DNA of 48,586 nt, from the NCBI RefSeq assembly GCF_030015065.1, contig NZ_JAIVFN010000020.1, forward strand, positions 1-48,586, in the 5' to 3' direction. Every line of letters starts with the position of its first letter. Positions within the stretch are counted from its first letter, which is position 1. The position numbers and the translations under genes were made by a program. This DNA is from Xanthobacter autotrophicus. Lineage in GTDB: Bacteria > Pseudomonadota > Alphaproteobacteria > Rhizobiales > Xanthobacteraceae. Positions 9,544 through 29,406 of the stretch are shown one piece after another. The notes below the pieces were generated by a model. The model worked only from the letters and a program-made list of their open reading frames with translations. It did no database searches and was not told where the DNA came from.

Positions 9544-9678
9544 GGACAACTCCGTCCGGAACGAACCGGGAAAACGAGCCTTACACACGCGCGCGGCGGC
9601 ATGCAACGGACAAGGCCGCGGGGAATGGGAACCGGGCCGGTCGCCCATGCCACAGGACCGCGGTCTCCCGCCTGTCCC

Positions 9679-14326: not shown

Positions 14327-14614
14327 TCAGCCCTGCCGGCGGAGGAAGCCGGTGATGGTCACCCGCGCCCAGATGTCCGCCTTGTGGAACGGATCGGCGG
14401 CGTTGAAGCGCTCCGCCGCATCCCGGTCCGGCGCCTCGACGAGGAACAGGCTGCCGATCATGGTGGCGCCGTCATCGCTCACCAGCGGCCCGGACATGAC
14501 GATGCGCACGCCGAAGGCCGAGGTATCGGCGAGAAACGCCTTGTGTGCCTCGTAATGGGCAAGGCGCGTGTCGAGCGCGCCCTCCCGGTCCACGGCGTGG
14601 ATTGCAAAAAGCAT
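14327..14614 (-). CDS. YciI-like protein
   Basis: This 95-residue protein has the ferredoxin-like YciI/YCII fold: MLFAIHAVDREGA at the start, H19 in LAHYEAHKAFL, a central SGPLVSDDG near residue 45, and DPFHKADIWARVTI near 75-88. The conserved His and Asp of the family are present. Members are small, mostly uncharacterised proteins sometimes found near aromatic or oxidative-stress genes. It lies 124 bases downstream of the ABC transporter operon on the same strand and convergent with the ICMT-like gene, so it may be the last gene of the catabolic locus or an independent housekeeping gene. Confidence 0.82.
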   Translation of the reverse strand: MLFAIHAVDREGALDTRLAHYEAHKAFLADTSAFGVRIVMSGPLVSDDGATMIGSLFLVEAPDRDAAERFNAADPFHKADIWARVTITGFLRRQG

Positions 14615-14738: not shown

Positions 14739-15719
14739 TCAGTTGGTCTTGGTGGACATGGCCGCGGCATCCGCCCAGGACGGGCAGGAGCGGCTTTCGA
14801 GCGGCACGTCGTAGGGCTGGTAGTTGGCGGCGTTGACCACGGTGGGCTTCAGCACCACCTCGCCGACGATGGGCTGGCCACGCAGGGCGCGGATGGCCAC
14901 CATGGTGCCGATACAACCCTGCACGAAGCCGTTGTAGTCGCCGGAAGCCAGCAGCTTGCCGGCCTTGATGGCGTCCACCGCCTCCTTGGTGCCGTTGATG
15001 CCGATCACCCTGGCCTTGCGGTTGGCCCCGTCTAGGGCCTCGATGGCGCCGATGGCCATGGCGTCGTTGGCGGCCAGCACCCCATCGATCTGCGGGTGCG
15101 ACTGCATCAAATTCTCCATCACCTGGAGCCCCTGCAGGCGCTGGTAATTGCCGGGCTGGCTGGCCAGCAGCTTCACGTCCTTGAATTCCTTGATGGCGTC
15201 GTTGAAGCCGCGCACCCGGTCGATGCTGGTCAGCGAGCCCTTGACGCCTTCGAGGATGACGACATTGCCCTTGCCGCCCATGGCCTTGAGCATGAAGCGG
15301 CCAGTCTCCAGGCCGAGGCTGTAGTCGTCGGCACCCACGAAGGCGAGGAACTTGCCGCCGGCGCTGCGGTCGGTGACGTTCACCACCGGGATCCCGGCGT
15401 CGTTGATCTGCTCCACGCCGGGCACCATGGCCTTGTAGTCCACCGGCACGAACACGATGGCGCTCGGCTTCTTCACGATCACGTCCTCGATCTGGCTCAG
15501 CTGCTCGGGGATCGAGTCCGGCTTGGTGGGAATATAGTGCACCACCTTCGCACCCATGGCCTTCGCCGCCGCCTCGGTGCCGACGCGGACGGTCTGGAAG
15601 TAGGGATTGGTCTGGTTCTTGGTGAAGACCGCGATGGTCTCGCCGTCAGCGAGCGCCGCCGAGGCGAGGAGGGTGACGGGCAGCGCCAGGACGGCGCGCT
15701 TGAGCTTCGACATCGACAT
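14739..15719 (-). CDS. Ribose-type ABC transporter substrate-binding protein
   Basis: This 326-residue periplasmic binding protein belongs to the RbsB/type 1 periplasmic binding family (Peripla_BP_4). It begins with a signal peptide, basic SKLKR then a hydrophobic stretch ending ASAALA before DGETI. The mature part shows TIAVFTKNQTNPYFQTV near residue 29, DVIVKKPSAIVFVPVD near 78, NVTDRSAGG near 112, DRVRGF near 165, LAANDAMAIGAIEAL near 211 and GINGT near 237, all typical of CUT2 sugar-binding proteins. Two cysteines (QGCIGT and SRSCPSW) could be a disulfide. GGAGGA precedes the ATG at 15719. It is the last of four transporter genes. The ligand is unknown; sugars, sugar alcohols and cyclic compounds are known for the family. 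Confidence 0.92.
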   Translation of the reverse strand: MSMSKLKRAVLALPVTLLASAALADGETIAVFTKNQTNPYFQTVRVGTEAAAKAMGAKVVHYIPTKPDSIPEQLSQIEDVIVKKPSAIVFVPVDYKAMVPGVEQINDAGIPVVNVTDRSAGGKFLAFVGADDYSLGLETGRFMLKAMGGKGNVVILEGVKGSLTSIDRVRGFNDAIKEFKDVKLLASQPGNYQRLQGLQVMENLMQSHPQIDGVLAANDAMAIGAIEALDGANRKARVIGINGTKEAVDAIKAGKLLASGDYNGFVQGCIGTMVAIRALRGQPIVGEVVLKPTVVNAANYQPYDVPLESRSCPSWADAAAMSTKTN

Positions 15720-15754
15720 TGGGGTTTCCTCCGGTTTTTTTGGTTGGCCTGCGG

Positions 15755-16729
15755 TCAGGTGCGCCGGCGGCCGCGCATGTCGAGCCACACGGCGAAGACG
15801 ACGATCACACCCGTGACCAGGGGCTGCCAGCTCGCATTCACCGCGAGCAGGTTCATGCCGTTGAGAACGAGCGTGAGGATCAGGGCGCCGACGAAGGTGC
15901 CGAACACGCTGCCCACCCCGCCGAACAGGGAGGCGCCGCCGATGAGCACCGCCGCGATGGCGGGCAGCGTCATGGCCTCGCCGATATCGCCTTCCGCCGA
16001 GTTGAGGCGGGCCAGGAAGACGATGGAGGCGACCCCCGCCATGGCGCCGGAGAAGGCGTAGACCAGGATCAGCCGGCGATCGACGGGAATGCCGGTGAGC
16101 CGCGCCGCCACCGGATTGGCGCCGATGGCGTAGATCTGCTGCCCCCACACCGTGCGCTGGGCGAAGATGGTACCGGCGAGCAGGAACCCGATCATCAGGT
16201 AGACCGGGATCGGGATGCCGAGGAAATAGCCCGATCCGATCTGCCGGAAGCCCGGCGGGAAGCCGTGGATGGTCTCGCCCGCCATGTAATAATAGGTGAT
16301 GCCGTGCAGCACCCAGAGCATGCCGTAGGTGGCGATGAAGGAGGGGATCCTCAGCTTCGCCACCATCAGGCCGTTGCAGATGCCCACGGCGCAGCCGGCC
16401 CCGAGGCCAGCAAGGGTGCCCAGCACCGGCGATCCCGTGACCTTGATCACCGTCGCCGCCAGGCACGCCGACAGGCCGATGTTCGCGCCCACCGAAAGGT
16501 CGAGCCCGCCGGTGAGGATCACCAGGGTGAGGCCCGCGGCGAGGAAGAACAGGAGGCTCGCCTGCCGGAGCACGTTGAGGATGTTGTTTGTGGTGAGGAA
16601 GGCATCCGTCATCACGCTGAGCGCGACGCACAGCAGTCCTGCGGCCAGCAGCCGGTAGAGCAGTTGCTCGACATCCTTCGACAGGTGGAAGCGGGGCGCG
16701 CTGGAGGAGATATCGCCGGCGATGCTCAT
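15755..16729 (-). CDS. Ribose-type ABC transporter permease (second)
   Basis: This 324-residue integral membrane protein is an RbsC-like permease (BPD_transp_2 family) with eight to ten hydrophobic helices. The signature GLTLVILTGGLDLSVG near residue 66 and NGMNLLAVNASWQPLVTG near 290 are characteristic. The ATG at 16729 overlaps the stop of the upstream permease gene by four bases, so expression is coupled; 35 bases separate its end from the substrate-binding protein gene. With its paralogue upstream it would form a heterodimeric channel for the imported compound. Confidence 0.92.
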   Translation of the reverse strand: MSIAGDISSSAPRFHLSKDVEQLLYRLLAAGLLCVALSVMTDAFLTTNNILNVLRQASLLFFLAAGLTLVILTGGLDLSVGANIGLSACLAATVIKVTGSPVLGTLAGLGAGCAVGICNGLMVAKLRIPSFIATYGMLWVLHGITYYYMAGETIHGFPPGFRQIGSGYFLGIPIPVYLMIGFLLAGTIFAQRTVWGQQIYAIGANPVAARLTGIPVDRRLILVYAFSGAMAGVASIVFLARLNSAEGDIGEAMTLPAIAAVLIGGASLFGGVGSVFGTFVGALILTLVLNGMNLLAVNASWQPLVTGVIVVFAVWLDMRGRRRT

Positions 16730-17679
16730 GACTTGTGGCTCCTCATGCCGTCGAGGAAGAGGGCGAAGATGACGAGGGCGCCGATGCAGGCCACCTGCAC
16801 CGACGAGGGGACGGCCATGAGATTCAGGCCGTTGCGCAGCACGCCCACGGTGATCACGCCGAGAAGGGTGCCGAAGATCCAGCCCTTGCCCTTCTCGAAG
16901 GAGGTGCCGCCCAGCGCCACCGCGGCGATGGCGTCGAACTCCATGCCGATGGCGGCGGTGGGATGGCCGGCATTCATGCGGGCGGTCATCAGCAGGGCCG
17001 CGACCCCGGCCATGGCCCCGCCCAGCATGTAGACGGCGACGAGCAGGCGGCGCCATTTCACGCCGGCCAGCGTCAGCGCGTCCCGGTTGCCGCCCAGCGC
17101 GCACACATAGGTGCCGAAGCGGGTGTGGTAGAGCAGCACGTGGAACAGGGCGTAGAAGCCGGCGCCGATGAGGATCGGCATGGGAAGGCCCGCCACCTCG
17201 CCGGAATAGACCTGCCGCACGAAGCGCGGAATGCCCACCACGCTCTGCCCGTCGCTGACGATCAGGGCGAGCCCCTGCGCCGCCCCGAGGGTGCCCAGGG
17301 TGGCGACGAAGGGCGGGATGGACAGCACCGACACCAGCCACCCGTTCACCAGCCCGAAGGCGAGGCCGACGCCCAGCGCGCCGGCAAGGCCGAGCGCCAG
17401 CGACTTTGTGGAGACCACGATCAGCGCCAGCACCAGCGAGGCGAGGGTGAGCACCGCGCCCATGGAGAGGTCGAGCCCCTCGGTCATGATGATCAGCGTC
17501 ATCGGCAAGGCGAGGAGCAGCAGGATCACCGACTGCACCAGGATGTTGGAGAGGTTTCCGGCGGAGAGGAAGCCAGGGCTCGCCACCGAGAACAGCGCCG
17601 CCAGGAGGCCGAGGGCCACGGCGACGCCCGGCACCGCCGGGAGGCGCGGGGCGGGGGAGGAAAGGGTCTGGTCACTCAT
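16726..17679 (-). CDS. Ribose-type ABC transporter permease (first)
   Basis: This 317-residue permease of the same RbsC-like family has the GLDLSMGAVLTLASLV segment near residue 69, an IPPFVATLGTLGAAQGLALIVS segment near 120-140 and NGLNLMAVPSSVQ near 280. Start ATG at 17679 lies within the end of the ATPase gene (8-base overlap). The two permeases are only moderately similar to each other, implying a heterodimer. GGAG-like bases upstream of 17679 lie within the ATPase reading frame, so translational coupling is probable. Confidence 0.92.
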   Translation of the reverse strand: MSDQTLSSPAPRLPAVPGVAVALGLLAALFSVASPGFLSAGNLSNILVQSVILLLLALPMTLIIMTEGLDLSMGAVLTLASLVLALIVVSTKSLALGLAGALGVGLAFGLVNGWLVSVLSIPPFVATLGTLGAAQGLALIVSDGQSVVGIPRFVRQVYSGEVAGLPMPILIGAGFYALFHVLLYHTRFGTYVCALGGNRDALTLAGVKWRRLLVAVYMLGGAMAGVAALLMTARMNAGHPTAAIGMEFDAIAAVALGGTSFEKGKGWIFGTLLGVITVGVLRNGLNLMAVPSSVQVACIGALVIFALFLDGMRSHKS

Positions 17680-19222
17680 GGTGCATCCCCATTCGGACGA
17701 TGTTCTCTTCGGAAAGGTCGGCGCGGGACAGTTCGCCGACGATGCGCTTGCCGCGCATGACGTAGGCGCGGTCGCAGACATGGACGATCTCCGCCTGCTC
17801 GGAGGAGATCATCAGCACCGCGGCACCCTCGGCCACGAGCTGGTCGATGAGGGCGAAGATCTCGGACTTGGCACCCACGTCTATGCCGCGCGTGGGCTCG
17901 TCGAAGATGAACAGGCGGGTGCCCGCGGCCAGCCACTTGCCGATCACCACCTTCTGCTGGTTGCCGCCGGAGAGCACGGCAACGCTCTGGTTCGGCGAAG
18001 GGGTGGCGATCCGCATCCGCGCGATCAGCTCCTCGGCGGTGCGGCGGGCACGGCCGGGCGAGAACAGCATGTTGGGGAACAGCCTGGGCAGGCCGGCAAC
18101 GGCGAGGTTCTCGCCCACGGTGCGGATCAGGGCGAGGCCCTCGCTCTTGCGGCTTTCCGGGATGAGGCCGACGCCCGCGACGGCGGCGGCGTCCGGCCCG
18201 CCGGTCTGGCGCCGGCCGAAGATGCGCACCTCGCCGGCCGTCACCTCGTCGGCGCCGAAGATGGCGCGGGCCACCTCGGTGCGGCCCGACCCCACCAGCC
18301 CGCACAGGCCGACGATCTCGCCGGCGCGCACCTTGAGGTCGATGTCGCGGATGCCGTTCCGGGCGCTCATGCCCGTCACCTCCAGCACCACCGCGCCGGG
18401 CTCGGTGGCGAAGCGGCGCGGATAGGTCATGTCCACATTGCGGCCGACCATCATGCGCACCAGCTCGTCGGGCGAGGTCTCGCCGGGCAGGGCGCGGCCC
18501 ACCAGCCTGCCGTCGCGCAGCACGGTGATGCGGTCGCCCAGCGCGAACACCTCCGCCATGCGGTGGGAGATGTAGACGATGGCCACGCCCTTGGCCTGAA
18601 GCTGGCGCATCACCTCGAACAGGCGCTCGGTCTCGCGGTCCGAGAGCGCGGCGGTGGGCTCGTCCATGACCAGGATGCGCGCCTCCTGGGACAGGGCCTT
18701 GGCGATCTCCACCATCTGCTGCTGGGCGACGCCGAGGCTGTGCACCTTGGTGCGCGGGTCCATGTCGAGCCCGACGAGGTCGAGCACGGCCTTCGCCTCG
18801 CGATAGAGGCGGCGGCGATCCACGAGGCCGGGGATCTTCGAGGCGAACTCCCGGCCGAGAAAGATGTTCTGGGCGATGTCCAGATGGGGGACGAGGGAGA
18901 ATTCCTGGAAGATCACCGCGATGCCGAGGCGGCGCGCATCGGCCGGGGAGCGGATCTCCACCCGCTTGCCCTCGTGGACATATTCGCCCTGGTCCGCCTG
19001 GTAGGCCCCGCACAGGATCTTCATGAGCGAGGACTTGCCGGCGCCGTTCTCGCCGAGGAGCATGTGCACCTCGCCGGGCCAGACCGCGAACGACACGTCG
19101 TCCAGCGCCTTCACGCCGGGAAAGCTCTTCGAAATGCCCTTCAGCTCGAGGAGCGGCGCGCCCGAAGCGGGAAAGGGCGCCGCCAGTTCGAGGCGAGGCG
19201 TTCGCTCCATGACCGCCCTCAT
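17672..19222 (-). CDS. Ribose-type ABC transporter ATP-binding protein (two nucleotide-binding domains)
   Basis: This 516-residue protein is a fused double ATPase of the RbsA/MglA type. The first domain has Walker A GENGAGKSS near residue 58, signature LGVAQQQMVEIAKAL near 155 and Walker B ILVMDEPTAALS near 178. The second has the usual degenerate Walker A (GLVGSGRTEV near 302), the signature LSGGNQQKVVIGKWL near 415 and FDEPTRGID near 437. The ATG at 19222 overlaps the stop of the FAD-linked oxidase gene (ATGA); an in-frame ATG at 19210 is an alternative. The overlap ties transporter expression to the upstream catabolic genes. Confidence 0.93.
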   Translation of the reverse strand: MRAVMERTPRLELAAPFPASGAPLLELKGISKSFPGVKALDDVSFAVWPGEVHMLLGENGAGKSSLMKILCGAYQADQGEYVHEGKRVEIRSPADARRLGIAVIFQEFSLVPHLDIAQNIFLGREFASKIPGLVDRRRLYREAKAVLDLVGLDMDPRTKVHSLGVAQQQMVEIAKALSQEARILVMDEPTAALSDRETERLFEVMRQLQAKGVAIVYISHRMAEVFALGDRITVLRDGRLVGRALPGETSPDELVRMMVGRNVDMTYPRRFATEPGAVVLEVTGMSARNGIRDIDLKVRAGEIVGLCGLVGSGRTEVARAIFGADEVTAGEVRIFGRRQTGGPDAAAVAGVGLIPESRKSEGLALIRTVGENLAVAGLPRLFPNMLFSPGRARRTAEELIARMRIATPSPNQSVAVLSGGNQQKVVIGKWLAAGTRLFIFDEPTRGIDVGAKSEIFALIDQLVAEGAAVLMISSEQAEIVHVCDRAYVMRGKRIVGELSRADLSEENIVRMGMHHE

Positions 19223-20718
19223 GGCTGTTCTCCGTCGCTGGATGGGGTGGGCCGGAAGATCTTGCCGGGGTTCATGAGCCCCAGGGGGTCGAGGGCACCC
19301 TTGACGGCGCGCATCACGTCCACCGCCTCGCCCAGCTCCAGGGCGAGGAAGTCCATCTTGCCGAGGCCGATGCCGTGCTCGCCGGTGCAGGTACCGTCGA
19401 GGGCCAGCGCCCGGAGCACCAGCCGATCGTTGAATGCCCTGGCGCGGGCCATTTCCTCGGGGCTCTCCGGATCCAGCAGAACCAGGAGATGGAAGTTGCC
19501 GTCGCCCACATGCCCCACCACCGGGGCGATCAGGCCGGTTTCGGCGATGTCCGCAGCGGTGGCGACGAGGCATTCGGCGAGGCGCGAGATCGGCACGCAC
19601 ACGTCGGTGATCAGAGCCCGCGCGCCGGGCCTCAGCGCGAGGCCGGCATAAAGCGTGTTGTCGCGGGCGTGCCACAGCCGGCTGCGCTCCTCCGTCGTCG
19701 TCGCCCACTGGAAGCCGAGGCCGCCGAATTCCCCGGCGAGCGCCTGCGCGGTCTCCGCCTGCTCGGCGGCATAGGCCCTGGAGCCGTGGAACTCGAAGAA
19801 CAGATGCGGCATCTCCGGCAGGTCGAGCCTGGCATGCAGGTTGATGCCCTGGATCATCACCGCGTCGAGCAGCTCGATGCGCGCCACCGGCACGCCCGAC
19901 TGGATGATCGCGATGGCCGTATCCACCGCCGCCTTGAGGTCCGGGAAGGCACACACGGCCGAGGAGATGGCGTCGGGCTGCGGATGCAGCTTCAGCGTCA
20001 CCTCGGTGATGACGCCGAGGGTTCCTTCGGCGCCCACGAACAGGCGGGTGAGGTCGTAGCCGGCGGCGGACTTGCGCGCCCGCCGCGCGGTGCGGATGAC
20101 GCGCCCGTCGGCGAGCACCACCTCGAGGGCGAGGACATTGTCCTTCATCGTCCCGTAGCGCACCGCCATGGTGCCCGAGGCGCGGGTGGAGGTCATGCCG
20201 CCGATGGAGGCGTCGGCGCCGGGGTCGATGGGGAAGAACAGGCCCGTATCCCGCAGCTGCGCGTTGAGCTGCTTGCGGGTGATGCCGGGCTGGACCCGCA
20301 CGTCCATGTCCTCGGCATTGACGGCGAGCACGCGGTCCATGCGGCCCATGTCGAGGCAGACGCCGCCATGCGGCGCGGCGGTGTTGCCTTCGAGCGAGGT
20401 GCCCGCGCCGAACGGCACCAGGGGCAGGCGCAGGTCCCGGCACAGGGCGACGATGGCGGCCACCTCCTGCGTCGTCTCCGGGAAGACGACCAGATCCGGG
20501 GGCCGGGCGGCATGGTAGGCCTCGCTGCGGCCGTGGTCGGCGCGCACGCCGGCGGCGCCGGTGGCACGCGCGCCGACGATGTCGCAAAGCCGGGCCAGCA
20601 CCCGCTCCATTGGGACTCGATCGACTGGCAGGTCGGCTCCGGGCACTCGGGCGCCGGGCACTTGAACGCTGGGCACCTGATCGATGCTCACGTGGTCGAT
20701 TGCCGTTTGGGCAGACAT
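19219..20718 (-). CDS. FAD-linked oxidase (D-2-hydroxyacid dehydrogenase / GlcD-like)
   Basis: This 499-residue flavoprotein has an FAD-binding domain (PFGAGTSLEGNTAAPHGGVCLD near residues 99-120, key GAGTSLEG; GGMTSTRASGTMAVRYG near 180) and a FAD-oxidase C-terminal domain with HVGDGNFH near 411 and GTCTGEHGIGLGK near 452. These are the marks of the family including glycolate oxidase GlcD, D-lactate dehydrogenase and D-2-hydroxyglutarate dehydrogenase, which oxidise 2-hydroxyacids to 2-oxoacids. Residues 9-40 are an unusual period-five repeat (units ending VP) encoded by 15-base tandem repeats; an internal Met at the MERVLARL segment (around 20609) is an alternative start that would remove it. 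The gene lies between the dioxygenase (76-base gap) and the transporter ATPase (4-base overlap). Confidence 0.88.
   Translation of the reverse strand: MSAQTAIDHVSIDQVPSVQVPGARVPGADLPVDRVPMERVLARLCDIVGARATGAAGVRADHGRSEAYHAARPPDLVVFPETTQEVAAIVALCRDLRLPLVPFGAGTSLEGNTAAPHGGVCLDMGRMDRVLAVNAEDMDVRVQPGITRKQLNAQLRDTGLFFPIDPGADASIGGMTSTRASGTMAVRYGTMKDNVLALEVVLADGRVIRTARRARKSAAGYDLTRLFVGAEGTLGVITEVTLKLHPQPDAISSAVCAFPDLKAAVDTAIAIIQSGVPVARIELLDAVMIQGINLHARLDLPEMPHLFFEFHGSRAYAAEQAETAQALAGEFGGLGFQWATTTEERSRLWHARDNTLYAGLALRPGARALITDVCVPISRLAECLVATAADIAETGLIAPVVGHVGDGNFHLLVLLDPESPEEMARARAFNDRLVLRALALDGTCTGEHGIGLGKMDFLALELGEAVDVMRAVKGALDPLGLMNPGKIFRPTPSSDGEQP
20611..20700. repeat. 15-base tandem repeat at the 5' end of the FAD oxidase gene
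   Basis: Six consecutive 15-base units cover 20611-20700. The middle three (20641-20655, 20656-20670, 20671-20685) begin GGGCACTCGGG, GGGCACTTGAA and GGGCACCTGAT. On the coding (minus) strand they translate to pentapeptides such as IDQVP, SVQVP, GARVP, GADLP and VDRVP. Confidence 0.75.
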
Positions 20719-20794
20719 GGTTTCCTCCCTCCGCGATCGGCCCGTTTGCCGGGCTCTCCGCGTGCGGTGACCTTGGCGACGTACTCGGTCCGGT

Positions 20795-21694
20795 TCAGGC
20801 CGCCCGCGAAGCCGTTTCCGAAACGGGGCTGAGGCGGAAGTCGTAGTTCAGGTGGCACCAGTCGCGGTCCACGGTCCGTCCGTCCGGCGCGGCGCCGGCG
20901 GGGTGCTCCACGAAGTCGCGAATGAGGGATTCCTTCACGCCGAAGACGGCGTCGGAATCGAGGTATGCGTCGCCGGCGGCGAAGACGTGGGTGACCAGGC
21001 GCTCGAAGCCCGGCGCCTCGATCATGAAGTGCACGTGGGCCGGTCGCCAGGGATGGCGTCCCTGCGCCTCCAGCATCCTGCCCACCGGCCCGTCATGGGG
21101 GATCGGATAGGCGGCAGGCTTGATGGACCAGAAGTGGAAGCGCCCCGCAGCATCGGTGCGCAGGCGCGCCCGCGCCACGAGACCGGCATGGCGGCCGGGC
21201 TGGTCGCCCGGATGCTGGACATCGTAATAGCCGTCCTCGTCGGAGTGCCACACATCCACGATGGCGTCGGCGAGCGGCGTGCCATCCGGCCGGCTCACCG
21301 AGCCCGACACGAACATGGGCTGGCCCGACAGCGCGCCGGAGATCCGGCCGCCGCACGGCACCTCCGGCGGTCCTTCCACATAGAAGGGTCCGAGCACGGT
21401 GCTCTCGGTGACCTCGCGCTGATGGTCATGGGTGATGGCGTCCACCAGCATGGAGACGCCGAGCGTGTCCGACAGCAGGATGAACTCCTGCCGGGTATCC
21501 GAGCACATGTGCCCGGTGTCGGTGAGGAAGGCGATGCCCCGCGCCCATTCCTCCTGGGTGGGGCGCACCTCGCGGATGAAATCATGGAGGTGGCGCACCA
21601 GCGCCGCGCTGATGTCCCGGACGCGCGGGTCGGGCGCGTTGGCGATCCGCTCGAGAACGGCCTCGGTGATGGTGAACTGGTCGAAGTTTCTCAT
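20795..21694 (-). CDS. Intradiol ring-cleavage dioxygenase (hydroxyquinol 1,2-dioxygenase-like)
   Basis: This non-haem Fe(III) enzyme cleaves a catechol-type ring between its adjacent hydroxyls. The 299-residue protein has an N-terminal helical dimerisation domain (residues 1-100) and the beta-sandwich catalytic domain. The expected iron ligands are visible: Tyr157 in GYYDVQ, Tyr196 in KPAAYPIP, His220 and His222 in RPAHVHF. The dimeric type with LGPFYVEG near residue 101 includes catechol and hydroxyquinol 1,2-dioxygenases; hydroxyquinol is favoured by the adjacent maleylacetate reductase, which acts on that product. GGGAGG precedes the ATG at 21694. The start overlaps the stop of the dehydrogenase gene (ATGA). 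Confidence 0.92.
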   Translation of the reverse strand: MRNFDQFTITEAVLERIANAPDPRVRDISAALVRHLHDFIREVRPTQEEWARGIAFLTDTGHMCSDTRQEFILLSDTLGVSMLVDAITHDHQREVTESTVLGPFYVEGPPEVPCGGRISGALSGQPMFVSGSVSRPDGTPLADAIVDVWHSDEDGYYDVQHPGDQPGRHAGLVARARLRTDAAGRFHFWSIKPAAYPIPHDGPVGRMLEAQGRHPWRPAHVHFMIEAPGFERLVTHVFAAGDAYLDSDAVFGVKESLIRDFVEHPAGAAPDGRTVDRDWCHLNYDFRLSPVSETASRAA

Positions 21695-22608
21695 GCGAGC
21701 CTCCCTTCGTTCTTGTCGAGATCCGGCTCGCCGAGCCCGGCGAGCCATTCGGCGAGGCGCACCGTGGAGATGAAGTCGGCCTCGCCTTCGCCGCGCCCGA
21801 TGAGGGCGCCGTAGATCTCCCGCGTGAGCGTGGCGAGGGGCATCGCCATCTCGGTGGCGTGGCCGGCATCGACGATGAGGTCGAGGTCCTTGGCCATCTG
21901 CCGGCAGGAGAAGGTGGAGATGAAATCGCGCGTGGACAGGCTCGCCGCCTTGTAGTGGACCATGGGCGAGCCAACCGCGCTGTCCCTCAGCACGTCGAGG
22001 ATGTCGGCCCAGCGCAGATTTCCCTTGCGGGCCAGCACGATGCTCTCGCCCATCATGGCGGCCGAGACCGCGATCATGAGATTGACGGCGAGCTTGGCGT
22101 AGCGCGCCTCCTCCTGCGTCCCGAGATATTTCTGGGCGCGGGTGAAATCCTGTGCCACCGGCAGCACCGCGTCGAAGGCGGCGCGCGGGCCGGAGACGAA
22201 GCAGGTGAGGTTGCCGGTATGGGCGATGGCCGCATTGCCCGAGACCGGGGCCCTCAGATAGGCGATGCCGCGCTGGCGGGCAGCCTCGGCCACCTGCGCC
22301 GAGATGCCGGGGCTGACGGTGGAGGTTTCCACCAGGATGGCGCCCTGCCGCATGGCCGACAGCAGCGGCCCGTCGAGGGCGGCCGCCCGCAGCGCCCTGT
22401 CGTCGGGCAGCGAGGTGAAGACGATGTCGCGACCGGCCGCGTCGGCAAGCGTCGCCGCCGGGGTCACGCCACCACCGGCGGCCGAAGCGATGCGTTCCTG
22501 GTCGCGATCATAGCCGGCGATGTCGCGTCCGGCCGCCGCGATGCGTGTGGAGATGGGAAGCCCCATCTTGCCGAGCCCGATCCATCCGAGGGTCTGCGTT
22601 GCGGTCAT
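21691..22608 (-). CDS. NAD(P)-dependent beta-hydroxyacid dehydrogenase (3-hydroxyisobutyrate dehydrogenase-like)
   Basis: This 305-residue protein belongs to the beta-hydroxyacid dehydrogenase family. LGWIGLGKMGLPISTRIAAAG at residues 6-26 (key GLGKMG) is the Rossmann nucleotide-binding motif; ETSTVSPGISAQVAE near 95 and APVSGNAAIAHTGNLTCFVSG near 120 are the substrate-binding motifs; YAKLAVNLM near 168 carries the catalytic Lys. A C-terminal helical domain completes the fold. The family includes 3-hydroxyisobutyrate, tartronate semialdehyde and 6-phosphogluconate-like enzymes, so the substrate cannot be fixed. ATG at 22608 was chosen over 22713 because the latter adds 35 low-complexity residues. 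It lies 13 bases after the amidohydrolase gene. Confidence 0.9.
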   Translation of the reverse strand: MTATQTLGWIGLGKMGLPISTRIAAAGRDIAGYDRDQERIASAAGGGVTPAATLADAAGRDIVFTSLPDDRALRAAALDGPLLSAMRQGAILVETSTVSPGISAQVAEAARQRGIAYLRAPVSGNAAIAHTGNLTCFVSGPRAAFDAVLPVAQDFTRAQKYLGTQEEARYAKLAVNLMIAVSAAMMGESIVLARKGNLRWADILDVLRDSAVGSPMVHYKAASLSTRDFISTFSCRQMAKDLDLIVDAGHATEMAMPLATLTREIYGALIGRGEGEADFISTVRLAEWLAGLGEPDLDKNEGRLA

Positions 22609-22621
22609 GTCGTCGTCTCCC

Positions 22622-24031
22622 TCACGCCGCCGACCTGGTGAGGCCGAGTTCCTCCACGATGCGCGCACCCGAGCGGGCGAGCGCGGCAAGCTGGCCGTCG
22701 AGCCCGGGTGCATCGAGCTTTCCGTCTTTCTTGGCGAAGCGTCCGGCGATCATCACCGCCTCCACATCGCCCCGGCCGGCCTGCATCACCACGGTGGCGA
22801 CCGGGTCGTGCACCGGCTGGAGATGCAGCGCCCGCGCGTCGATCACCGCGATGTCGGCCTGCTTGCCGGGGGCGAGCGAACCGATGCGGTCATCGAGCCC
22901 CAGCATCCGCGCGCCCTCGATGGTGATCCACGACAAGGCCTGCCGCACCCGGACCGTGGAGGTGGACGGAATGGCGCCGGTCTCGCGCCGGCTCTGCGCA
23001 TTGTCGAGGGCGCGCTGCATGCCGAGCGCGATGCGCGCGACGCCCATCATGTCCCCCGCGAGCACGGATTCCAGATCGACGCCGAGGGAGGGCGCCGCCC
23101 CCCGCTGCAGCAGGCGGCCGGTGACGGGGAAGCCGTGGCCCTGGGTCATCTCGTTCTCGGGCGTCACCGAGAAGGACACGCCGAGATCGACGAGACGCTC
23201 GAACAGCGCGTCGCCCAGATCATTGCCGTGCACCACGTTGATACCCGGGCCGACGAGAGCCTCCGCGATGAGTGTCTCCCATCCGCCCGGCGTCTTCGCC
23301 ACGCCCCCGCCCTGGTGCATGGAGGCGACGAGGCCGAACTCGCGCGCCAGCCGGAAGTCGGCCCGCGCCACCTCCAGCGTGGAATAATGCGGGCCGAGGA
23401 TGGCGAGGCCGAGGGTCATCAGCCCATCCGCGCCACCAAAGCGGCCGCGCCGCAGGCGCTCCACCTCCGCGCGGGGATGCGGCACCTCGGAAAAATGCGG
23501 CTCGCCGGGCTTGGGGTCCGGCTTGGGCGAGCCGTGGAAGAAGGCGGCGCGGATGCCGCTTTCCGCCAGCGCATCCACCGCCGCGTCGGTGTGGGCGGGG
23601 GTGGGATTGTTGTGGCACCAGTCCACGAGGGTGGTGGTGCCGGCATCGATCTGGCCGAGCGCGCCGACGAGGGTCGCGATGTGGATGTCCTCGGGCCGGA
23701 AGCGGGTGGCGAGGCCCGCATGGACCCAGCGGAAATATTCCAGCAGCGTCCAGTCGGCCGCGAGGCTCCGCAGGCCCGTTTGCCAGGTGTGCATGTGGGC
23801 ATTGACGAAGCCCGGCACACAGATGCGACCGGTGCCGTCCACCACCGCCGCGTCGGCCGCTTCGATGCGCGGGGCGATGGCGGCGATGCGCTCGCCCTCC
23901 ACCAGGATGTCCCCCGCCGGCAGGTCGCCGACGACGGGATCCATGGAGAGGATGGTCGCCCCCGAGATGAGGATGCGCCGGGCAGGAATGCTCTGGGCAG
24001 GAGTGCTCTGGCAACGAGTGCGCTGGACCAT
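22622..24031 (-). CDS. Amidohydrolase of the ATZ/TRZ (deaminase/chlorohydrolase) family
   Basis: This 469-residue protein is a metal-dependent amidohydrolase. An N-terminal beta-sandwich (residues 20-72) precedes the TIM barrel, whose first metal ligands are His79 and His81 in NAHMHTW. Further ligands are His in MHQGG near residue 253, His in VHGND near 279 and Asp in GVDLES near 327; SLAPGKQADIAVID near 395 is the returning beta-sandwich. These proteins remove amino, chloro or alkoxy groups from N-heterocycles, purines and pyrimidines, or open cyclic amides. The start at 24031 lies three bases after the maleylacetate reductase stop (24035), on the same transcript. The N-terminus carries three 15-base tandem units (23980-24024). 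The true substrate is unknown. Confidence 0.9.
   Translation of the reverse strand: MVQRTRCQSTPAQSIPARRILISGATILSMDPVVGDLPAGDILVEGERIAAIAPRIEAADAAVVDGTGRICVPGFVNAHMHTWQTGLRSLAADWTLLEYFRWVHAGLATRFRPEDIHIATLVGALGQIDAGTTTLVDWCHNNPTPAHTDAAVDALAESGIRAAFFHGSPKPDPKPGEPHFSEVPHPRAEVERLRRGRFGGADGLMTLGLAILGPHYSTLEVARADFRLAREFGLVASMHQGGGVAKTPGGWETLIAEALVGPGINVVHGNDLGDALFERLVDLGVSFSVTPENEMTQGHGFPVTGRLLQRGAAPSLGVDLESVLAGDMMGVARIALGMQRALDNAQSRRETGAIPSTSTVRVRQALSWITIEGARMLGLDDRIGSLAPGKQADIAVIDARALHLQPVHDPVATVVMQAGRGDVEAVMIAGRFAKKDGKLDAPGLDGQLAALARSGARIVEELGLTRSAA
23980..24024. repeat. 15-base tandem repeat at the 5' end of the amidohydrolase gene
   Basis: GGGCAGGAATGCTCT (23980-23994), GGGCAGGAGTGCTCT (23995-24009) and GGCAACGAGTGCGCT (24010-24024) are tandem units of 15 bases. 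The coding strand gives a five-residue period, STPAQ followed by SIPAR. Confidence 0.7.
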
Positions 24032-24034
24032 GGC

Positions 24035-25123
24035 TCAGGCCGCCTCCTCTGCGGAAACGCGCGCGCCCGGCCGCTCCCCGGCATAGGCGCGGGCGATCAG
24101 GTCGCGCACGCCGTCGCGGGTGACCGGGCGGGGGTTCCAGTAGGGATTTTCGGCCGCGAGGTCGGCCGCGGTCTCGATGCCCTCGGCGGGCATGCCGATG
24201 TCCTTCAGGGCGCGCGGCACGCCGAGGACACGGACCAGGTCGAACAGGCCCTGCGCCGCGTCGGGCGCGCCGATGGCGCGGGTGATGGCCGCCATGGCCT
24301 CGGGCGCCGCCGGGGCATTGTAGGCCACCGCATGGGGCAGCACGATGGTGTGCGTTTCAGCGTGGGGCAGGTCGAAGGTGCCGCCCAGGGTGTGGCAGAG
24401 CTTGTGGTGGAGCGCCATGCCCACCGCGCCGAGGCAGCAGCCGGCGAGCCATGCGCCATGGAGCGCCATGCCGCGGGCCTCCATGTTGTCCGGCTCGTGG
24501 ACCAGGATCGGCAGCGCCGAGGACAGGGTGCGGATGGCGTCTTGCGCCATCAGCGAGATGACCGGGTTGCGGTCCTTCGCATAGAGCGCCTCCACCGCAT
24601 GGGCGATGGCGTTGACGCCGGAGGTGGCCGACAGCGCCGGCGGCAGGCCCACCGTGAGGTCCACGTCGTAGATGACCGCCTCGGGCAGCACGTCGAGGGA
24701 GCGGATGGTGGTCTTTCGCCCGTCCCTGGTCTCGCCGAGGATCGGCGTCATCTCCGAGCCGGCATAGGTGGTGGGGATGCACAGCTGCCGGACCCCCGTG
24801 CGAAGCGCCAGCGCCTTGCCGAGGCCGGTGGTGGAACCGCCGCCGAGCGACACCACGCAGTCCGCGCCGGCCGCGTGCAGCGCCAGGATGGCCTCCTGCG
24901 TCACCGCGACCGGCGTGTGCATGGTGGCGCCGGAGAAGAGCCCGGCGAAGGCCGGGCCCAGGAGGCTGCCGAGCCGTTCCCCCTCCCCCGCCTGCTGCGG
25001 CGTGGTGAGGACGAGGGCGCGCGATGCGCCCAGCCGGGCCACTTCCGCACCGGCCTCGGCGATGGTGCCGCGGCCGAAGCGCACGCGGATCGGCAGGGCC
25101 TCATATGTGAAGGTCTCGATCAT
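24035..25123 (-). CDS. Maleylacetate reductase (iron-containing alcohol dehydrogenase family)
   Basis: The enzyme reduces maleylacetate with NAD(P)H to 3-oxoadipate, the step after hydroxyquinol ring cleavage. This 362-residue protein has the family pattern: nucleotide-binding VSLGGGSTTGLGKALAL near residues 92-108, IPTTYAGSEMTPI near 118-130, metal-binding His in NAIAHAVEALYA near 175-186 and HHKLCHTLGGTFDLPHAETH near 235-254 (key HHKLCH and LPHAETH). The ATG at 25123 follows a weak purine stretch (GGGACGAG). The upstream frame extends to 25576, overlapping the Dabb gene in another frame, and is not used. The adjacent intradiol dioxygenase supports the assignment. Confidence 0.92.
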   Translation of the reverse strand: MIETFTYEALPIRVRFGRGTIAEAGAEVARLGASRALVLTTPQQAGEGERLGSLLGPAFAGLFSGATMHTPVAVTQEAILALHAAGADCVVSLGGGSTTGLGKALALRTGVRQLCIPTTYAGSEMTPILGETRDGRKTTIRSLDVLPEAVIYDVDLTVGLPPALSATSGVNAIAHAVEALYAKDRNPVISLMAQDAIRTLSSALPILVHEPDNMEARGMALHGAWLAGCCLGAVGMALHHKLCHTLGGTFDLPHAETHTIVLPHAVAYNAPAAPEAMAAITRAIGAPDAAQGLFDLVRVLGVPRALKDIGMPAEGIETAADLAAENPYWNPRPVTRDGVRDLIARAYAGERPGARVSAEEAA

Positions 25124-25212
25124 GGGCTCGTCCCGTCTGGAGCGTCTTTCGGCGACGCGGCTCGTCCCGCGCCTCGGCTTGCCCGCTCGGCTGAAACTCT
25201 CGGTCCCGCGGA

Positions 25213-25605
25213 TCACTCTCCCGCGAGGACGCCGGCACGCGGCGCGCCGGCCCCGCTGAAATGCTCGGGGGCGGCCTCGGCCGCGCCTGCAGCGCAAGGC
25301 GCGACATAATCCACCTGGAACCGCGCGATCCGCAGGTCGGACAGTTCGCGCCGCACGCGCAGATGCTCGGGATGGTTGGCGTAGGCCTCGAGGTCGGCGC
25401 GGTTGGCGAACTCGGAGACGAGGACCACGTCGCAGGCATAGTCCACGTCGCTGACGTCCAGCCCGATCTCGATGTGGTTCAGGCCCTCGATGCGGCCCTT
25501 CAGGCCCTCGAACGCCGCCTTCACCTTCAGCCTGGCCGTGGCGCGCTCCTCGGGCGTGTCGCCGCGCACGCGCCACATCACGATATGGCGGATCGGGCCC
25601 ATCAT
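25213..25605 (-). CDS. Dabb (dimeric alpha-beta barrel, stress-responsive A/B barrel) protein
   Basis: This 130-residue protein begins IRHIVMWRVRGDTPEERA and continues LNHIEIGLDVSDVDYACDVVLVSEFANRADLEAYANHPEH near residues 42-82 (landmark VLVSEF and YANHPEH), the signature of the Dabb/stress-responsive A-B barrel family. Such proteins form dimeric ferredoxin-like barrels and include ring-closing and ring-modifying enzymes as well as proteins of unknown role. The C-terminal 35 residues are Ala/Gly-rich and probably disordered. Two adjacent ATGs (25605 and 25602) can serve; GAGG lies upstream. It is the first gene of the catabolic operon, facing the LysR gene across 107 bases. Confidence 0.85.
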   Translation of the reverse strand: MMGPIRHIVMWRVRGDTPEERATARLKVKAAFEGLKGRIEGLNHIEIGLDVSDVDYACDVVLVSEFANRADLEAYANHPEHLRVRRELSDLRIARFQVDYVAPCAAGAAEAAPEHFSGAGAPRAGVLAGE

Positions 25606-25712
25606 TGGCGTTTCCTCGACCTGTTTGGTCTTTCGTTGGGGGTCAGTTTTGACTTGCGCTATGCGGAAATAAACTCGAATTTTCGGAACGGTCTTTTACG
25701 CGGAACGGAAAG
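25606..25712. promoter_or_regulatory. Divergent LysR/operon regulatory region
   Basis: This 107-base interval lies between the catabolic operon and its divergent LysR gene and is AT-richer than the surroundings (around 25641-25700). It contains two direct copies of CGGAACGG (25684-25691 and 25701-25708) and a GAAAT...ATTTTC inverted pair near 25666-25684. LysR proteins commonly bind such divergent promoters at T-N11-A type sites. The operator assignment is inference. Confidence 0.5.
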
Positions 25713-26627
25713 GTGGATCGCCTGACGCAGATCGAAGTGTTCCTGAAGACGGCCGAGCTGGGCAGCCTCTCACGCGCCGCCGAGGTGCTGGGCATGTCCA
25801 ATGCCGCAGCGAGCCGCCACCTGAGCGCGCTGGAGGAGCGCCTTTCGGCCCGGCTGGTGGAGCGCAACACGCGCCGCCTGTGGCTGACCGAGGCGGGGCA
25901 GGACTTCTACCAGCGCAGCGGCGCGCTCCTGAGCGAGCTTGCCGAGGCCGAGGAGGCGGTGAACGAGCACACCCTCTCCCCGCAGGGCCTGCTGAGGGTG
26001 ACGAGCTCGCTGTCGTTCGCGATGATCTATATTGCGCCCATGCTGCCGGAGTTCCGCAGGACCTATCCCAAGCTGAACGTGCACGTGGCGGTGGCGAACC
26101 GCTATCTCGACTTCATCGAGGCCGGGATCGACGTCGCCATCCGCACCCGCCTGCACGAGCCGGACACCAACATCGTGGTGCGGCGCCTCGGGCGCATGCG
26201 GCGGGTGCTGGCCGCCGCGCCGTCCTATCTCGCCGAGCACGGCTGGCCGAAGGAGCCGGCGGATCTCGCCCACCACCACATGCTGGTCTACAACCTCGCG
26301 GCCGACCCGTTCTCGCTGCGCCTCACCAAGGGCGATGTGGAACGCACCGTGCGCATCGGCGCGGCGCTCAACTGCAATGACGGGCAGGTCATCCGGCAGG
26401 CGGCGCTCGCCGGCCTCGGCATCCTGATCCAGCCGCTCTACATCGTGCACGGCGACATCGACGCCGGCCGTCTGGTGCCGGTCCTGATCGACTGGCAGCT
26501 GCCGACGCTGACCATGAACATCGCCTACCAGAACCGGGCGCGCCTGCCGGCCAAGATCCGGGTGTTCACCGATTTCCTCGTGAACCACGTGCGCAAGGCG
26601 TCGCATAGCGAGATCTGGACGGCGTGA
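25713..26627 (+). CDS. LysR-type transcriptional regulator
   Basis: This 304-residue regulator has the LysR winged helix-turn-helix at residues 1-60 (EVFLKTAELGSLSRAAEVLGMSNAAASRHLSALEERL, landmark SLSRAAEVLGMS), then a linker helix and a co-inducer-binding domain that recognises a small molecule, usually the pathway substrate or an intermediate. The frame starts with GTG at 25713, preceded by GGAACGGAAAG. It is divergent from the Dabb-maleylacetate reductase-dioxygenase-transporter operon, so it is the likely regulator of it. It ends 48 bases from the convergent xseB gene. Confidence 0.92.
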   Translation: MDRLTQIEVFLKTAELGSLSRAAEVLGMSNAAASRHLSALEERLSARLVERNTRRLWLTEAGQDFYQRSGALLSELAEAEEAVNEHTLSPQGLLRVTSSLSFAMIYIAPMLPEFRRTYPKLNVHVAVANRYLDFIEAGIDVAIRTRLHEPDTNIVVRRLGRMRRVLAAAPSYLAEHGWPKEPADLAHHHMLVYNLAADPFSLRLTKGDVERTVRIGAALNCNDGQVIRQAALAGLGILIQPLYIVHGDIDAGRLVPVLIDWQLPTLTMNIAYQNRARLPAKIRVFTDFLVNHVRKASHSEIWTA

Positions 26628-26675: not shown

Positions 26676-26981
26676 CTACCCGTCCGCGTCCAGCGGCGCG
26701 GTGCCGGCGGGGCGGCCATCGGCATCGCGGGTGATGGTCTCGACCCGCGCCTCGGCCGCCTTCAGCAGGGCATCGCAGCGCGCCTTCAACGCCTCGCCGC
26801 GCTCATACATGATGATGGATTCCTCAAGCGGGACGCTGCCCCTCTCGAGGTTGCCGACAATGGCCTCCAGTTCCGCCAGCGCCTGCTCGAAGCTGAGCTT
26901 GTCCACCCCCGCCGCCGGGCTGGCGGCCTGACTCGCGGTCTGGCCGGATCTGGCGCTTGTTGCCTTCGTCGCATCGGCCAT
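26676..26981 (-). CDS. xseB: Exodeoxyribonuclease VII small subunit
   Basis: XseB is the small subunit of exonuclease VII, which digests single-stranded DNA. The 101-residue protein has the family core [53 protein letters not shown] at residues 29-80 (landmark FEQALAELE and PLEES), forming two helices of a coiled coil. About 28 Ala/Ser/Thr-rich residues precede it, and the last 15 residues are polar. xseA is not within the window. It stands alone between the LysR gene and a divergent hisZ. Confidence 0.93.
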
Positions 26982-27256: not shown

Positions 27257-28435
27257 ATGTTGCCCGCGGCGTCCGCGCCCTTTCCGCCCCGCGATCCATC
27301 GAGCCTCGAAGACGCGCTGATCGCCTGCTTCGAGACCGCCGGCTTCTCGCGCCATGATCCGCCCATCCTCCAGCCGGCGGACGTGTTCCTCGATCTGTCG
27401 GGGGAATCCATCCGCCGCCGCATGTATCTGACGGCGGACGCGGATGGCCGCGAGCTGTGCCTGAGGCCGGACCTCACCATCCCGGTCGCCCGCGCCGTCA
27501 TCGCCGAGCGCATGCCGTTGCCGGCGCGCGTGAGCTATCTCGGCCCGGTGTTCCGCTTCAGCGGCGAGGGATCGGGCGAGTTCCGGCAGGCCGGTGTGGA
27601 ATCCTTCGGCCGCACCGACGGCGAGGCGGCGGACGCGGAGATGATCGCCCTCGGCCTCAATGCGTGCGCGCTCTATGGCCTGCCCCAGCCGGAGATCCGG
27701 CTGGGCGACGTGGGCCTGTTCGCGGCGCTGCTGGAGGCCCTGCCCCTCGCCCCGGCCCTGCGCCGGCGGCTGCTCAAGGATTTCGGCCAGAGCCGGCTCG
27801 ACGCCGATCTCAGCCGCCTGAAGGAACGCCCGCAAGAAAGCGTCTCCGCCCATGCGGGCGTGCTCGCGGCCCTCGCCGGTGCCGATCCCGCGGCGGCGCG
27901 CGCCCTCATCACCGATCTCCTGTCCATCGCCGGCATCTCCACCGTCGGCGGGCGCTCGGTGTCCGAGATCGCCGCGCGCTTCCTGGAGCAGTCCTCGCTG
28001 GAGGCGGGCGCCGGCCTGTCCGGCGAGACGGGGGAAATCCTCTCCCGCTACCTCGCCATCTCCGGCACGCCCGACGAGGCCTCCGCCCGCCTGCGGGCGC
28101 TGGCAGCGGATGCCGGGATCGACATCTCTGCCGCCCTCGACACCTTCGACCGGCGCACGGGCTTCCTCACCGCCTTTGCGGTGAACCTTGCCGACGTGCG
28201 CTTCTCCAGCGCCTTCGGGCGGCCGCTGGACTATTACAGCGGCATGGTCTTCGAGCTGCACGACGCCTCCGGGCGCACCGACGGGCCGCTGGTGGCGGGC
28301 GGCCGCTACGACAAGCTGCTCGCGCGCCTCGGCGCCGAAGCCTGCGTGCCCGGCGTCGGCCTCGCCGTCTGGGTGGAGCGGCTCGCCGCCCTCGCCGCCG
28401 CCCCCTTCCCCGCTGCTTCGGAGGGTGCCCGATGA
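27257..28435 (+). CDS. hisZ: ATP phosphoribosyltransferase regulatory subunit
   Basis: HisZ is a histidyl-tRNA synthetase-like, catalytically inactive protein that activates short-form HisG in the first step of histidine synthesis. The 392-residue protein has class II synthetase-like motifs: [23 protein letters not shown] near residues 57-80 (landmark LRPDLT), [20 protein letters not shown] near 100-120, and [14 protein letters not shown] and [12 protein letters not shown] near 320-360. Only a weak AGGA at 27241-27244 precedes the ATG at 27257. The stop overlaps the hisG start (ATGA, 28432-28435), so the two are translationally coupled. Confidence 0.93.
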
Positions 28436-29406
28436 CGAGCCCGCTCATTCTGGCCGTGCCCTCGAAGGGCCGGCTCCAGGAGAATGTCCACGCCTTCTTC
28501 GCCCGCGCCGGCATGCCGCTGACGCAGGCGCGCGGCGCCCGCGACTATCGCGGCGCCCTCGGCGGCGTGGAGAATGTGGAGGTGGCCTATCTCTCCGCCT
28601 CCGAGATCGCGGCGGCGCTGGCCACCGGCGCCGCCCATATCGGTGTGACGGGCGAGGACCTGGTGCGCGAGAACATCCTGGAGGCGGACAGCCGCGTCGC
28701 GCTCCTGGAAAAGCTCGGCTTCGGCCATGCCAACGTGGTCGTTGCCGTGCCGCAGGCCTGGATCGACGTGCGCACCATGGACGATCTCGACGACGTGGCG
28801 AGCCATTTCCACGGCCGCACCGGCCGCCGGATCCGGGTGGCGACGAAATATGTGAACCTGACCCGCGGCTATTTCGCCCGCCACGGCATCGTGGACTACC
28901 GCATCGTCGAGAGCGCGGGCGCCACCGAGGGCACCCCCGCCGCCGGCACTGCCGAGCTCATCGTGGACATCACCACCACCGGCGCGACGCTGTCAGCCAA
29001 TGCCCTGAAGGTGGTGGATGACGGGATCATCCTGAAGTCGGAGGCCAATCTCGTGGCCTCGCTTACCGCCAACTGGAGCGGCAGCGCGCTTTTGGCGGCG
29101 CGGGCCATGTTCGACCGGCTGGGAGCGGAAAAGCGCGCGCGGACCATGCGCGAGGTGCGCACCCGCTTCGCGAGCTGCGACGCCTCCCTGGTGGACCAGG
29201 CGGTGGCGCGCTATCGCTGCGTTGCACCGTTCGGCGGTCCCACATCCTCCGGTATGCTCACCCTGCATTGCCCGCCGGACACGCTGCACGCCCTCGCCAC
29301 CTTCCTCCGCGAGCAGGGGGCGAGCATGGTGACGGTTGGTCCCATCGAATATGTGTTCGCGGCGGACAATCCCCTCTATGAGGCTCTCGAAGCCCGGCTT
29401 GGCTGA
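28432..29406 (+). CDS. hisG: ATP phosphoribosyltransferase, apparently long type
   Basis: HisG joins ATP and phosphoribosyl pyrophosphate to start histidine synthesis. The 324-residue protein opens [15 protein letters not shown], carries [14 protein letters not shown] near residue 65, and the PRPP-binding [18 protein letters not shown] near 170-187. It is longer than the roughly 210-230 residues typical of short-form HisG, and the last 80-90 residues (from [12 protein letters not shown] to the end, with [14 protein letters not shown]) look like an additional regulatory-type C-terminal domain. This is odd because a HisZ partner, normally needed by short forms, is encoded upstream and coupled. 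Start at 28432 is set by the overlap. Confidence 0.93.

Follow-up and report, generated by a model that had tools for sequence, protein, structure and literature searches.

A conserved twelve-gene catabolic unit of Xanthobacter autotrophicus joins a ribose-type importer to a hydroxyquinol-type lower pathway and may receive a cyclitol-like compound

How might a sugar-type importer feed a ring-cleaving dioxygenase when no ring hydroxylase is encoded in the same unit? The question is raised by a gene cluster of Xanthobacter autotrophicus in the 48,586-nucleotide stretch NZ_JAIVFN010000020.1 (positions 1 to 48,586; hereafter the window), where genes for a hydroxyquinol 1,2-dioxygenase (HQDO), a maleylacetate reductase (MAR) and an ABC importer lie together opposite a divergent LysR gene. 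As read from the sequence, the twelve genes form a single unit dedicated to catabolism; the conserved operon is real and its lower pathway is known. For the precursor, the best-supported reading, held tentatively, is that the unit imports a cyclitol-like ring, polyhydroxylated but not aromatic, and that oxidation and dehydration convert it to hydroxyquinol. Since the imported ring would itself be turned into hydroxyquinol in this way, a ring hydroxylase would not be needed, which would account for the combination of a sugar importer with a ring-cleaving enzyme.

The original prediction had described ten minus-strand genes facing a LysR regulator. All ten are present and their families were named correctly, but the count should be eleven, because a YciI-family gene (14327-14614), 124 bases past the end first given for the cluster, had been missed. 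The minus-strand genes, to which all gene coordinates below refer unless stated otherwise, are transcribed in the order Dabb, MAR, amidohydrolase (AH), beta-hydroxyacid dehydrogenase of the HIBADH (3-hydroxyisobutyrate dehydrogenase) family, HQDO, FAD enzyme, ATPase, permease A, permease B, binding protein and YciI. Overlaps of 4 bases were found for HQDO/HIBADH, ATPase/FAD gene and permease A/permease B, and one of 8 bases for ATPase/permease A. The gaps comprise 3 bases (MAR/AH), 13 bases (HIBADH/AH), 76 bases (FAD gene/HQDO) and 89 bases (Dabb/MAR). The Dabb ferredoxin-like-fold protein (25213-25605; PF07876) is separated by a promoter region (25606-25712) from the plus-strand LysR-type regulator (25713-26627; GTG start; PF00126 and PF03466). 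In this region, TTTATTTCCG is present in 12 of 12 aligned sequences.

An alignment of AH was used to scan genomes; 464 stretches encode a relative, and the best 80 of these 464 were kept. In 51 of the 80 loci, all twelve genes, the divergent LysR included, are present in unchanged order and orientation. Together with the short gaps and overlaps, this bears out the earlier claim of a single regulon. Five further loci have an intact MAR-to-YciI block that adjoins a LacI-like gene (by eye) rather than LysR and Dabb; the remaining 24 are truncated contigs or other arrangements. According to the record titles, 45 of the 51 complete loci are from Bradyrhizobium, so that the 51 are not independent cases; the others are from Azorhizobium, Xanthobacter, Bosea (2), a Rhizobiales strain and a record labelled Frankia. 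Two Bosea plasmids also bear all twelve genes. Since the complete loci span protein identities to the window from 57% (HIBADH) to 91% (permease B), the cluster is not a product of chance. AH occurred in 47 of 296 sampled genomes of the family (E up to 1e-150) and in 8 of 398 genomes of the phylum (E up to 1e-90), the own genome being included each time. YciI was the next cluster gene after the permease B/binding protein pair in 57 of the 60 loci with such a pair; the exceptions were L033, where the stretch ends, L039, where YciI is absent from the last 1.3 kb or so of contig, and L111, where another gene intervenes.

The gap between the FAD gene and HQDO measured 51-65 bases in 11 relatives, and a promoter and terminator scan gave no signal above shuffled controls. 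Thus, the 76-base gap is not marked as a break, and there was no sign of the split at this position that had been considered as an objection beforehand. Likewise, the literature searched, which was limited to CC-licensed PMC papers, yielded no paper on this cluster and no homologous cluster to which a substrate has been assigned. One genome (G620; L164) has the canonical cluster without AH and HIBADH, with the other ten genes matching and a MAR-HQDO distance of about 0.1 kb. The AH and HIBADH genes occur as a pair in L087, L102 and L112, without HQDO within the stretch examined, and the two may form a separable step. A reduced form with only Dabb, MAR, AH and YciI was observed in Bradyrhizobium sp. 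Gha (L110).

The predicted hydroxyquinol-type lower pathway of HQDO and MAR is solid, and the pairing of the two enzymes had already been assigned to hydroxyquinol breakdown. HQDO (20795-21694; Dioxygenase N and C domains) scored 309 bits against hydroxyquinol 1,2-dioxygenase 1tmx. Its four iron ligands by alignment to 1tmx (two Tyr and two His on Fe(III)), Y157, Y196, H220 and H222, were kept in 66, 65, 65 and 65 of 66 rows, the remainder being gaps. MAR (24035-25123) matched the solved MAR 3hl0 over residues 3-352 of 362 (427 bits) and was the sole match in the own genome (E up to 1e-20). HQDO would open hydroxyquinol to maleylacetate, and MAR would convert the latter to 3-oxoadipate. Two adjacent Dioxygenase_C matches on contig C3 of the own genome are probably protocatechuate dioxygenase subunits, which suggests a 3-oxoadipate route in this genome.

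By its gene set, the importer is ribose-type (CUT2) and thus sugar-type, as anticipated. It consists of a Peripla_BP_4 periplasmic binding protein (14739-15719; PF13407), two BPD_transp_2 permeases (permease B, 15755-16729; permease A, 16726-17679; both PF02653) and a double-domain ATPase with two ABC_tran stretches (17672-19222), which is the CUT2 composition. The binding protein is RbsB-like and scored 184 bits against the sugar-binding protein 2ioy; the ATPase is AraG/RbsA-like. Most ribose-type contacts are retained in the binding protein, but at two ribose-site positions Asp is changed to Asn (56/60 rows) and Gln to Tyr (54/60 rows). Additional importers were observed beside some clusters: in Bradyrhizobium sp. 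NFR13 (L055) and Tardiphaga robiniae (L061), a second CUT2 importer (about 50% identical) adjoins the cluster together with a RidA-family gene, and in the Bradyrhizobium loci L045 and L057 a xylulokinase gene and a second CUT2 importer lie immediately past LysR, at 2.3-7.6 kb.

YciI (PF03795) proved to be the most informative part of the cluster regarding the precursor. The solved relative with the best score was TftG, the 5-chloro-2-hydroxyhydroquinone dehydrochlorinase (E 1.1e-8), followed by HI0828 (9e-4). TftG residues D9, R17, Y21 and H24 align in YciI and were kept in 65, 65, 58 and 65 of 65 rows; D9, R17 and H24 also match HI0828. YciI is a predicted eliminase or tautomerase acting just ahead of hydroxyquinol.

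Closely related YciI genes elsewhere mostly co-occur with HQDO, MAR, inositol-dehydrogenase-like enzymes and sugar-type importers, and monooxygenases of the phenol-hydroxylase type are missing from this company. A search of plasmids (E up to 1e-15) yielded 39 records, two of which were the Bosea clusters; five of the other 37 were opened. In each of the five, MAR and a ring dioxygenase, intradiol or otherwise, lie next to YciI or in its vicinity; in L147, the stretch ends within the dioxygenase gene, whose identity comes solely from the annotation. The further genes of the five are of sugar or cyclitol type and encode SDRs, QuiC-like TIM barrels (weak), Gfo/Idh proteins, Zn-dehydrogenase and an RbsB-like binding protein or sugar ABC components; the best models were IolG for Gfo/Idh and IolM for Zn-dehydrogenase, both below cut-off. 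A search at the level of the order found YciI in 35 of 397 genomes (E up to 1e-14). Fifteen loci were examined, namely 14 non-canonical ones and the canonical L164; the matches outside these 15, the own genome apart, have 73-80% identity. Among the non-canonical loci with 52-60% identity, tblastn located MAR near 4/5 and HQDO near 3/5, and at 40-48% identity neither was near any of nine. Among the loci examined, L152, L157 and L159 are short stretches.

Three loci form a bridge to the window. L150 combines HQDO, MAR, two Zn-dehydrogenases, Gfo/Idh, YciI, SDRs, CUT2 genes and HIBADH. L165 (Paraburkholderia largidicola) has CUT2 ABC genes, an IolM-like dehydrogenase (201 bits, cut-off 450), HIBADH, YciI, HQDO, MAR and an SDR. 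L072 (Mesorhizobium ephedrae) has an IolM/threonine-dehydrogenase-like protein, an IolG-like protein, a Zn-dehydrogenase, an SDR, YciI and an AH 67% identical to that of the window. Importer type, HIBADH, YciI, HQDO and MAR are thus common to the window and to clusters in which the additional enzymes suggest saturated polyhydroxy rings, and the cyclitol origin that had been raised for the trihydroxybenzene is favoured by this comparison. Clusters of another kind were seen in S. meliloti Rm41 (pRM41A; L119) and S. americanum (L169). Both have HQDO, MAR, members of the enolase superfamily and TIM barrels, joined in L119 by a type II dehydroquinate dehydratase and a FAD dehydrogenase that is KstD-like, and in L169 by GMC genes. 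Their HQDOs sit in the 10-row tree group that holds the window (support 97/96). To judge from the enzymes, these clusters seem to reach hydroxyquinol from an alicyclic ring by a route of their own.

For the window, the importer would take up a polyhydroxylated non-aromatic carbocycle such as a cyclitol, a deoxycyclitol or a close derivative, and the dehydrogenases of the FAD and HIBADH types would generate a ring ketone. Loss of water by enolisation and beta-elimination would then aromatise the ring, with YciI and possibly Dabb or AH assisting. Elimination of water by YciI would be an extrapolation from the mechanism of TftG, a named dehydrochlorinase of the hydroxyquinol ring. By arithmetic, loss of 2 H2O from a deoxyinosose (C6H10O5) would give C6H6O3, the formula of hydroxyquinol, the 1,2,4 isomer being assumed; loss of 3 H2O from an inosose (C6H10O6) would give C6H4O3, the formula of hydroxybenzoquinone, a compound open to reduction by a flavin quinone reductase. 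There is chemical precedent: aromatisation of keto-inositols proceeds via enolisation and beta-elimination (PMC5327690), and a microbial inosose was converted by acid dehydration to 1,2,3,4-tetrahydroxybenzene (PMC11467972). A broader and more speculative proposal is that rhizobia and their relatives might aromatise a saturated polyhydroxy ring through dehydrogenation and repeated dehydration to hydroxyquinol, with YciI and Dabb eliminating and O2 opening the ring last. The YciI-HQDO-MAR core would then be fed by interchangeable upper modules (AH and FAD dehydrogenase here; IolG/IolM-like, SDR or QuiC-like enzymes elsewhere).

The remaining enzymes of the window were compared with solved or modelled families. 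The FAD-linked D-2-hydroxyacid dehydrogenase-like oxidoreductase (19219-20718; PF01565 and PF02913) is closest to D-lactate dehydrogenases (535 bits to 8jdc), and its two His and EH pair are retained in 59/59 rows. An enzyme of this type weakens the earlier suggestion of an FAD oxidase acting on the ring. The HIBADH-family protein (21691-22608; PF03446 and PF14833) has tartronate semialdehyde reductase and 3-hydroxyisobutyrate dehydrogenase as nearest models, under both cut-offs; the presumably catalytic Ser, Lys and Asn are retained in 35, 36 and 36 of 36 rows. AH (22622-24031; PF01979) exceeded a cut-off only for the uncharacterised PRK08204 among the 25 models shown (601 vs. 391 bits), and its relatives begin about 15 codons further in than the window annotation.

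The metal site of AH (HxH, H, H, D) is retained in 69/69 rows. The catalytic Glu that related deaminases and chlorohydrolases carry in their HxxE motif (E241 of TrzN) is replaced by Gly in the alignment of AH to 3hpa and in all 69 rows. This replacement weakens a role of AH as deaminase or amidase, and with it the earlier idea that AH removes an amino or amide group. The predicted fold (mean pLDDT 87.7) is closest to AtzA, followed by an adenosine-deaminase homologue, Vcz and TrzN; TrzN E241Q mutants are named among the structures matched. It is the expected fold and gave no new functional lead. Gene context alone was uninformative for AH, since surroundings were mixed in the 13 of 79 plasmid records opened. 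HQDO and MAR were not found beside AH relatives of 51-53% identity (five loci, four of the family and one of the order) or beside four at 40-45% in an ORF-based search less sensitive than tblastn; four Acidobacteria-type contigs, including two short ones, encode relatives of 66-70% and showed no HQDO within the stretch examined. In the Acidobacteria/Terriglobia contigs L040 and L042, AH (68-70% identical to that of the window) adjoins sugar/exopolysaccharide-type genes by eye.

Several observations weigh against a cyclitol-like precursor, and the task of AH is the weakest point. The argument is drawn by analogy with the sister clusters, since among the window cluster genes no Gfo/Idh, SDR, TIM-barrel or IolE-type dehydratase was found. 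In the sister clusters themselves, the best matches to IolG and IolM are far under the cut-offs; threonine dehydrogenase scores about as well as IolM in L148 and higher in L072. The YciI-TftG match amounts to 39 bits, and L153, with YciI at 54% identity, has neither HQDO nor MAR. An HQDO search of plasmids gave 327 records with a match, nine of which were opened (L119-L121 and L165-L170). L168, L170 and L120 were read as hydroquinone-type, and L170 and L120 carry YciI (33-34%) beside HQDO; L166 has an FAD monooxygenase adjoining HQDO, L167 a gra-like gene set (by annotation), and L121 HQDO with no MAR listed. In the HQDO tree, subject to a long-branch warning, L165 groups with L166 and L167, so that the groupings follow neither transporter nor precursor.

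Hydroxylases also have to be considered. Pfam scans of the cluster genes found no ring monooxygenase inside the unit, as had been stated before. FAD_binding_3-type probes, whose scope excludes HpaB- and acyl-CoA-dehydrogenase-type hydroxylases, gave no match in L145-L165 and did match L166. Against a cyclitol-like precursor, a monooxygenase of this type, each time with a related MarR-like gene beside it, lies within the examined flanks of 15 of 61 canonical-type loci: 14 from Bradyrhizobium, which share 89-100% identity with the L092 copy, and one from Bosea vaviloviae (L032; 29%). In Bradyrhizobium, monooxygenase and MarR-like gene lie close to LysR in 6/14 loci and further out in 8/14. Three large FAD_binding_3 hydroxylase candidates are encoded on other contigs of the own genome. 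The Bradyrhizobium enzyme, of the PRK06126 subfamily and located beyond LysR (e.g., L092:5301-7007, L062:5208-7566), may simply be a neighbour with no link to the pathway, or it may serve the pathway as a facultative hydroxylase.

These monooxygenases fit the main rival, a rather unlikely one, in which the imported compound is an aromatic that already bears oxygen, or a ring substituted with N or halogen, AH and YciI strip its substituents, a quinone reductase and HQDO finish, and any hydroxylase is encoded elsewhere, e.g., as the Bradyrhizobium flavin monooxygenase. It would agree with an AH fold predicted to be nearest to atrazine chlorohydrolase and nucleobase deaminases, with TftG acting on chlorohydroxyhydroquinone, with the RidA homologue near the cluster in 2/61 loci, and with the FMN/flavin reductase directly after YciI in 6/61 (a 48% homologue is on another contig of the window genome). 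However, the Gly in place of the HxxE Glu argues against such stripping, the importer is sugar-type with most ribose-type contacts intact, and the monooxygenase lies outside the conserved block, was not found in the examined flanks of 46 of the 61 loci and has its own MarR-like gene. Entries from benzoxazinoids and from 4-aminophenol/paracetamol were among those considered and rejected, as was chlorophenoxyacetate degradation, for which the paper on Bradyrhizobium RD5-C2 describes tfd genes, tftG and tftH being absent from its main text (PMC8446748).

A sugar-type importer would also suit an aryl glycoside recognised via its sugar, with sugar oxidation and subsequent elimination releasing hydroxyquinol for the operon. 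The GMC, Gfo/Idh, ThuA and TIM-barrel genes of sister clusters are reminiscent of 3-keto-glycoside pathways, but the window unit lacks these sugar-oxidising and deglycosylating families and has nothing obvious for the freed sugar; this explanation is improbable. Less probable still is a resorcinol or gamma-resorcylate (gra-type) pathway of the ordinary kind, its hydroxylase being encoded at an unlinked site. HQDO and MAR are shared with gra clusters, but the window AH is PF01979, and PF04909 had no match in the own genome (positive controls matched in 6/14). A salicylate-induced set of dioxygenase, tftE1, amidohydrolase and flavin reductase reported in R. leguminosarum (PMC4136779) would be in keeping with such a pathway.

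Compared with known systems, the window shares HQDO and MAR, with iron ligands kept and a single genomic MAR match, with the hydroxyquinol ortho-cleavage pathway. Known entries into that pathway use ring hydroxylases, whereas entry here is through a sugar-type importer with HIBADH, FAD hydroxyacid dehydrogenase, AH, Dabb and YciI. The tft cluster for 2,4,5-T degradation encodes a hydroxyquinol dioxygenase, an MAR and a chlorophenol monooxygenase besides TftG; the window likewise unites a TftG-related YciI with HQDO and MAR but has a CUT2 importer instead of the chlorophenol monooxygenase. With gra clusters, it has HQDO, MAR and a protein called amidohydrolase in common and differs in the AH family and in the lack of a resorcinol hydroxylase in the unit (Pfam scans). 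Ribose/allose-type CUT2 importers have the same four components, whereas the window proteins are under the equivalog cut-offs of the models matched and have two altered ribose-site residues. The likeness to inositol (iol) catabolism lies in the CUT2-type importer and in the IolG-/IolM-like dehydrogenases of sister clusters; no IolG/IolE/IolD-type enzyme is among the ten window genes, and the iol pathway opens the ring by IolD-type hydrolysis, not by a dioxygenase. Unlike the hydroquinone/p-nitrophenol clusters as apparently represented by L168, L170 and L120, the window lacks a two-subunit hydroquinone dioxygenase and an aldehyde dehydrogenase.

Elsewhere in the window, genes for the exonuclease VII small subunit (26676-26981) and DXP synthase (7612-9648) were noted, and ORFs resembling hisZ and hisG by eye follow the cluster on the plus strand (27257-29406).

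The block is conserved in order across many soil and root-nodule bacteria. Even with an aromatic substrate, a twelve-gene operon kept in 51 of 80 species genomes would stand with no assigned substrate found, and the sister clusters supply a short list of candidate substrates. If a cyclitol-like precursor is true, YciI and Dabb proteins, mostly of unknown function, would gain a testable catalytic role, and plant cyclitols or compounds like them would enter the aromatic 3-oxoadipate route with no need of a ring oxygenase, through a trait that is common in Bradyrhizobium and also present in Bosea and Xanthobacter.

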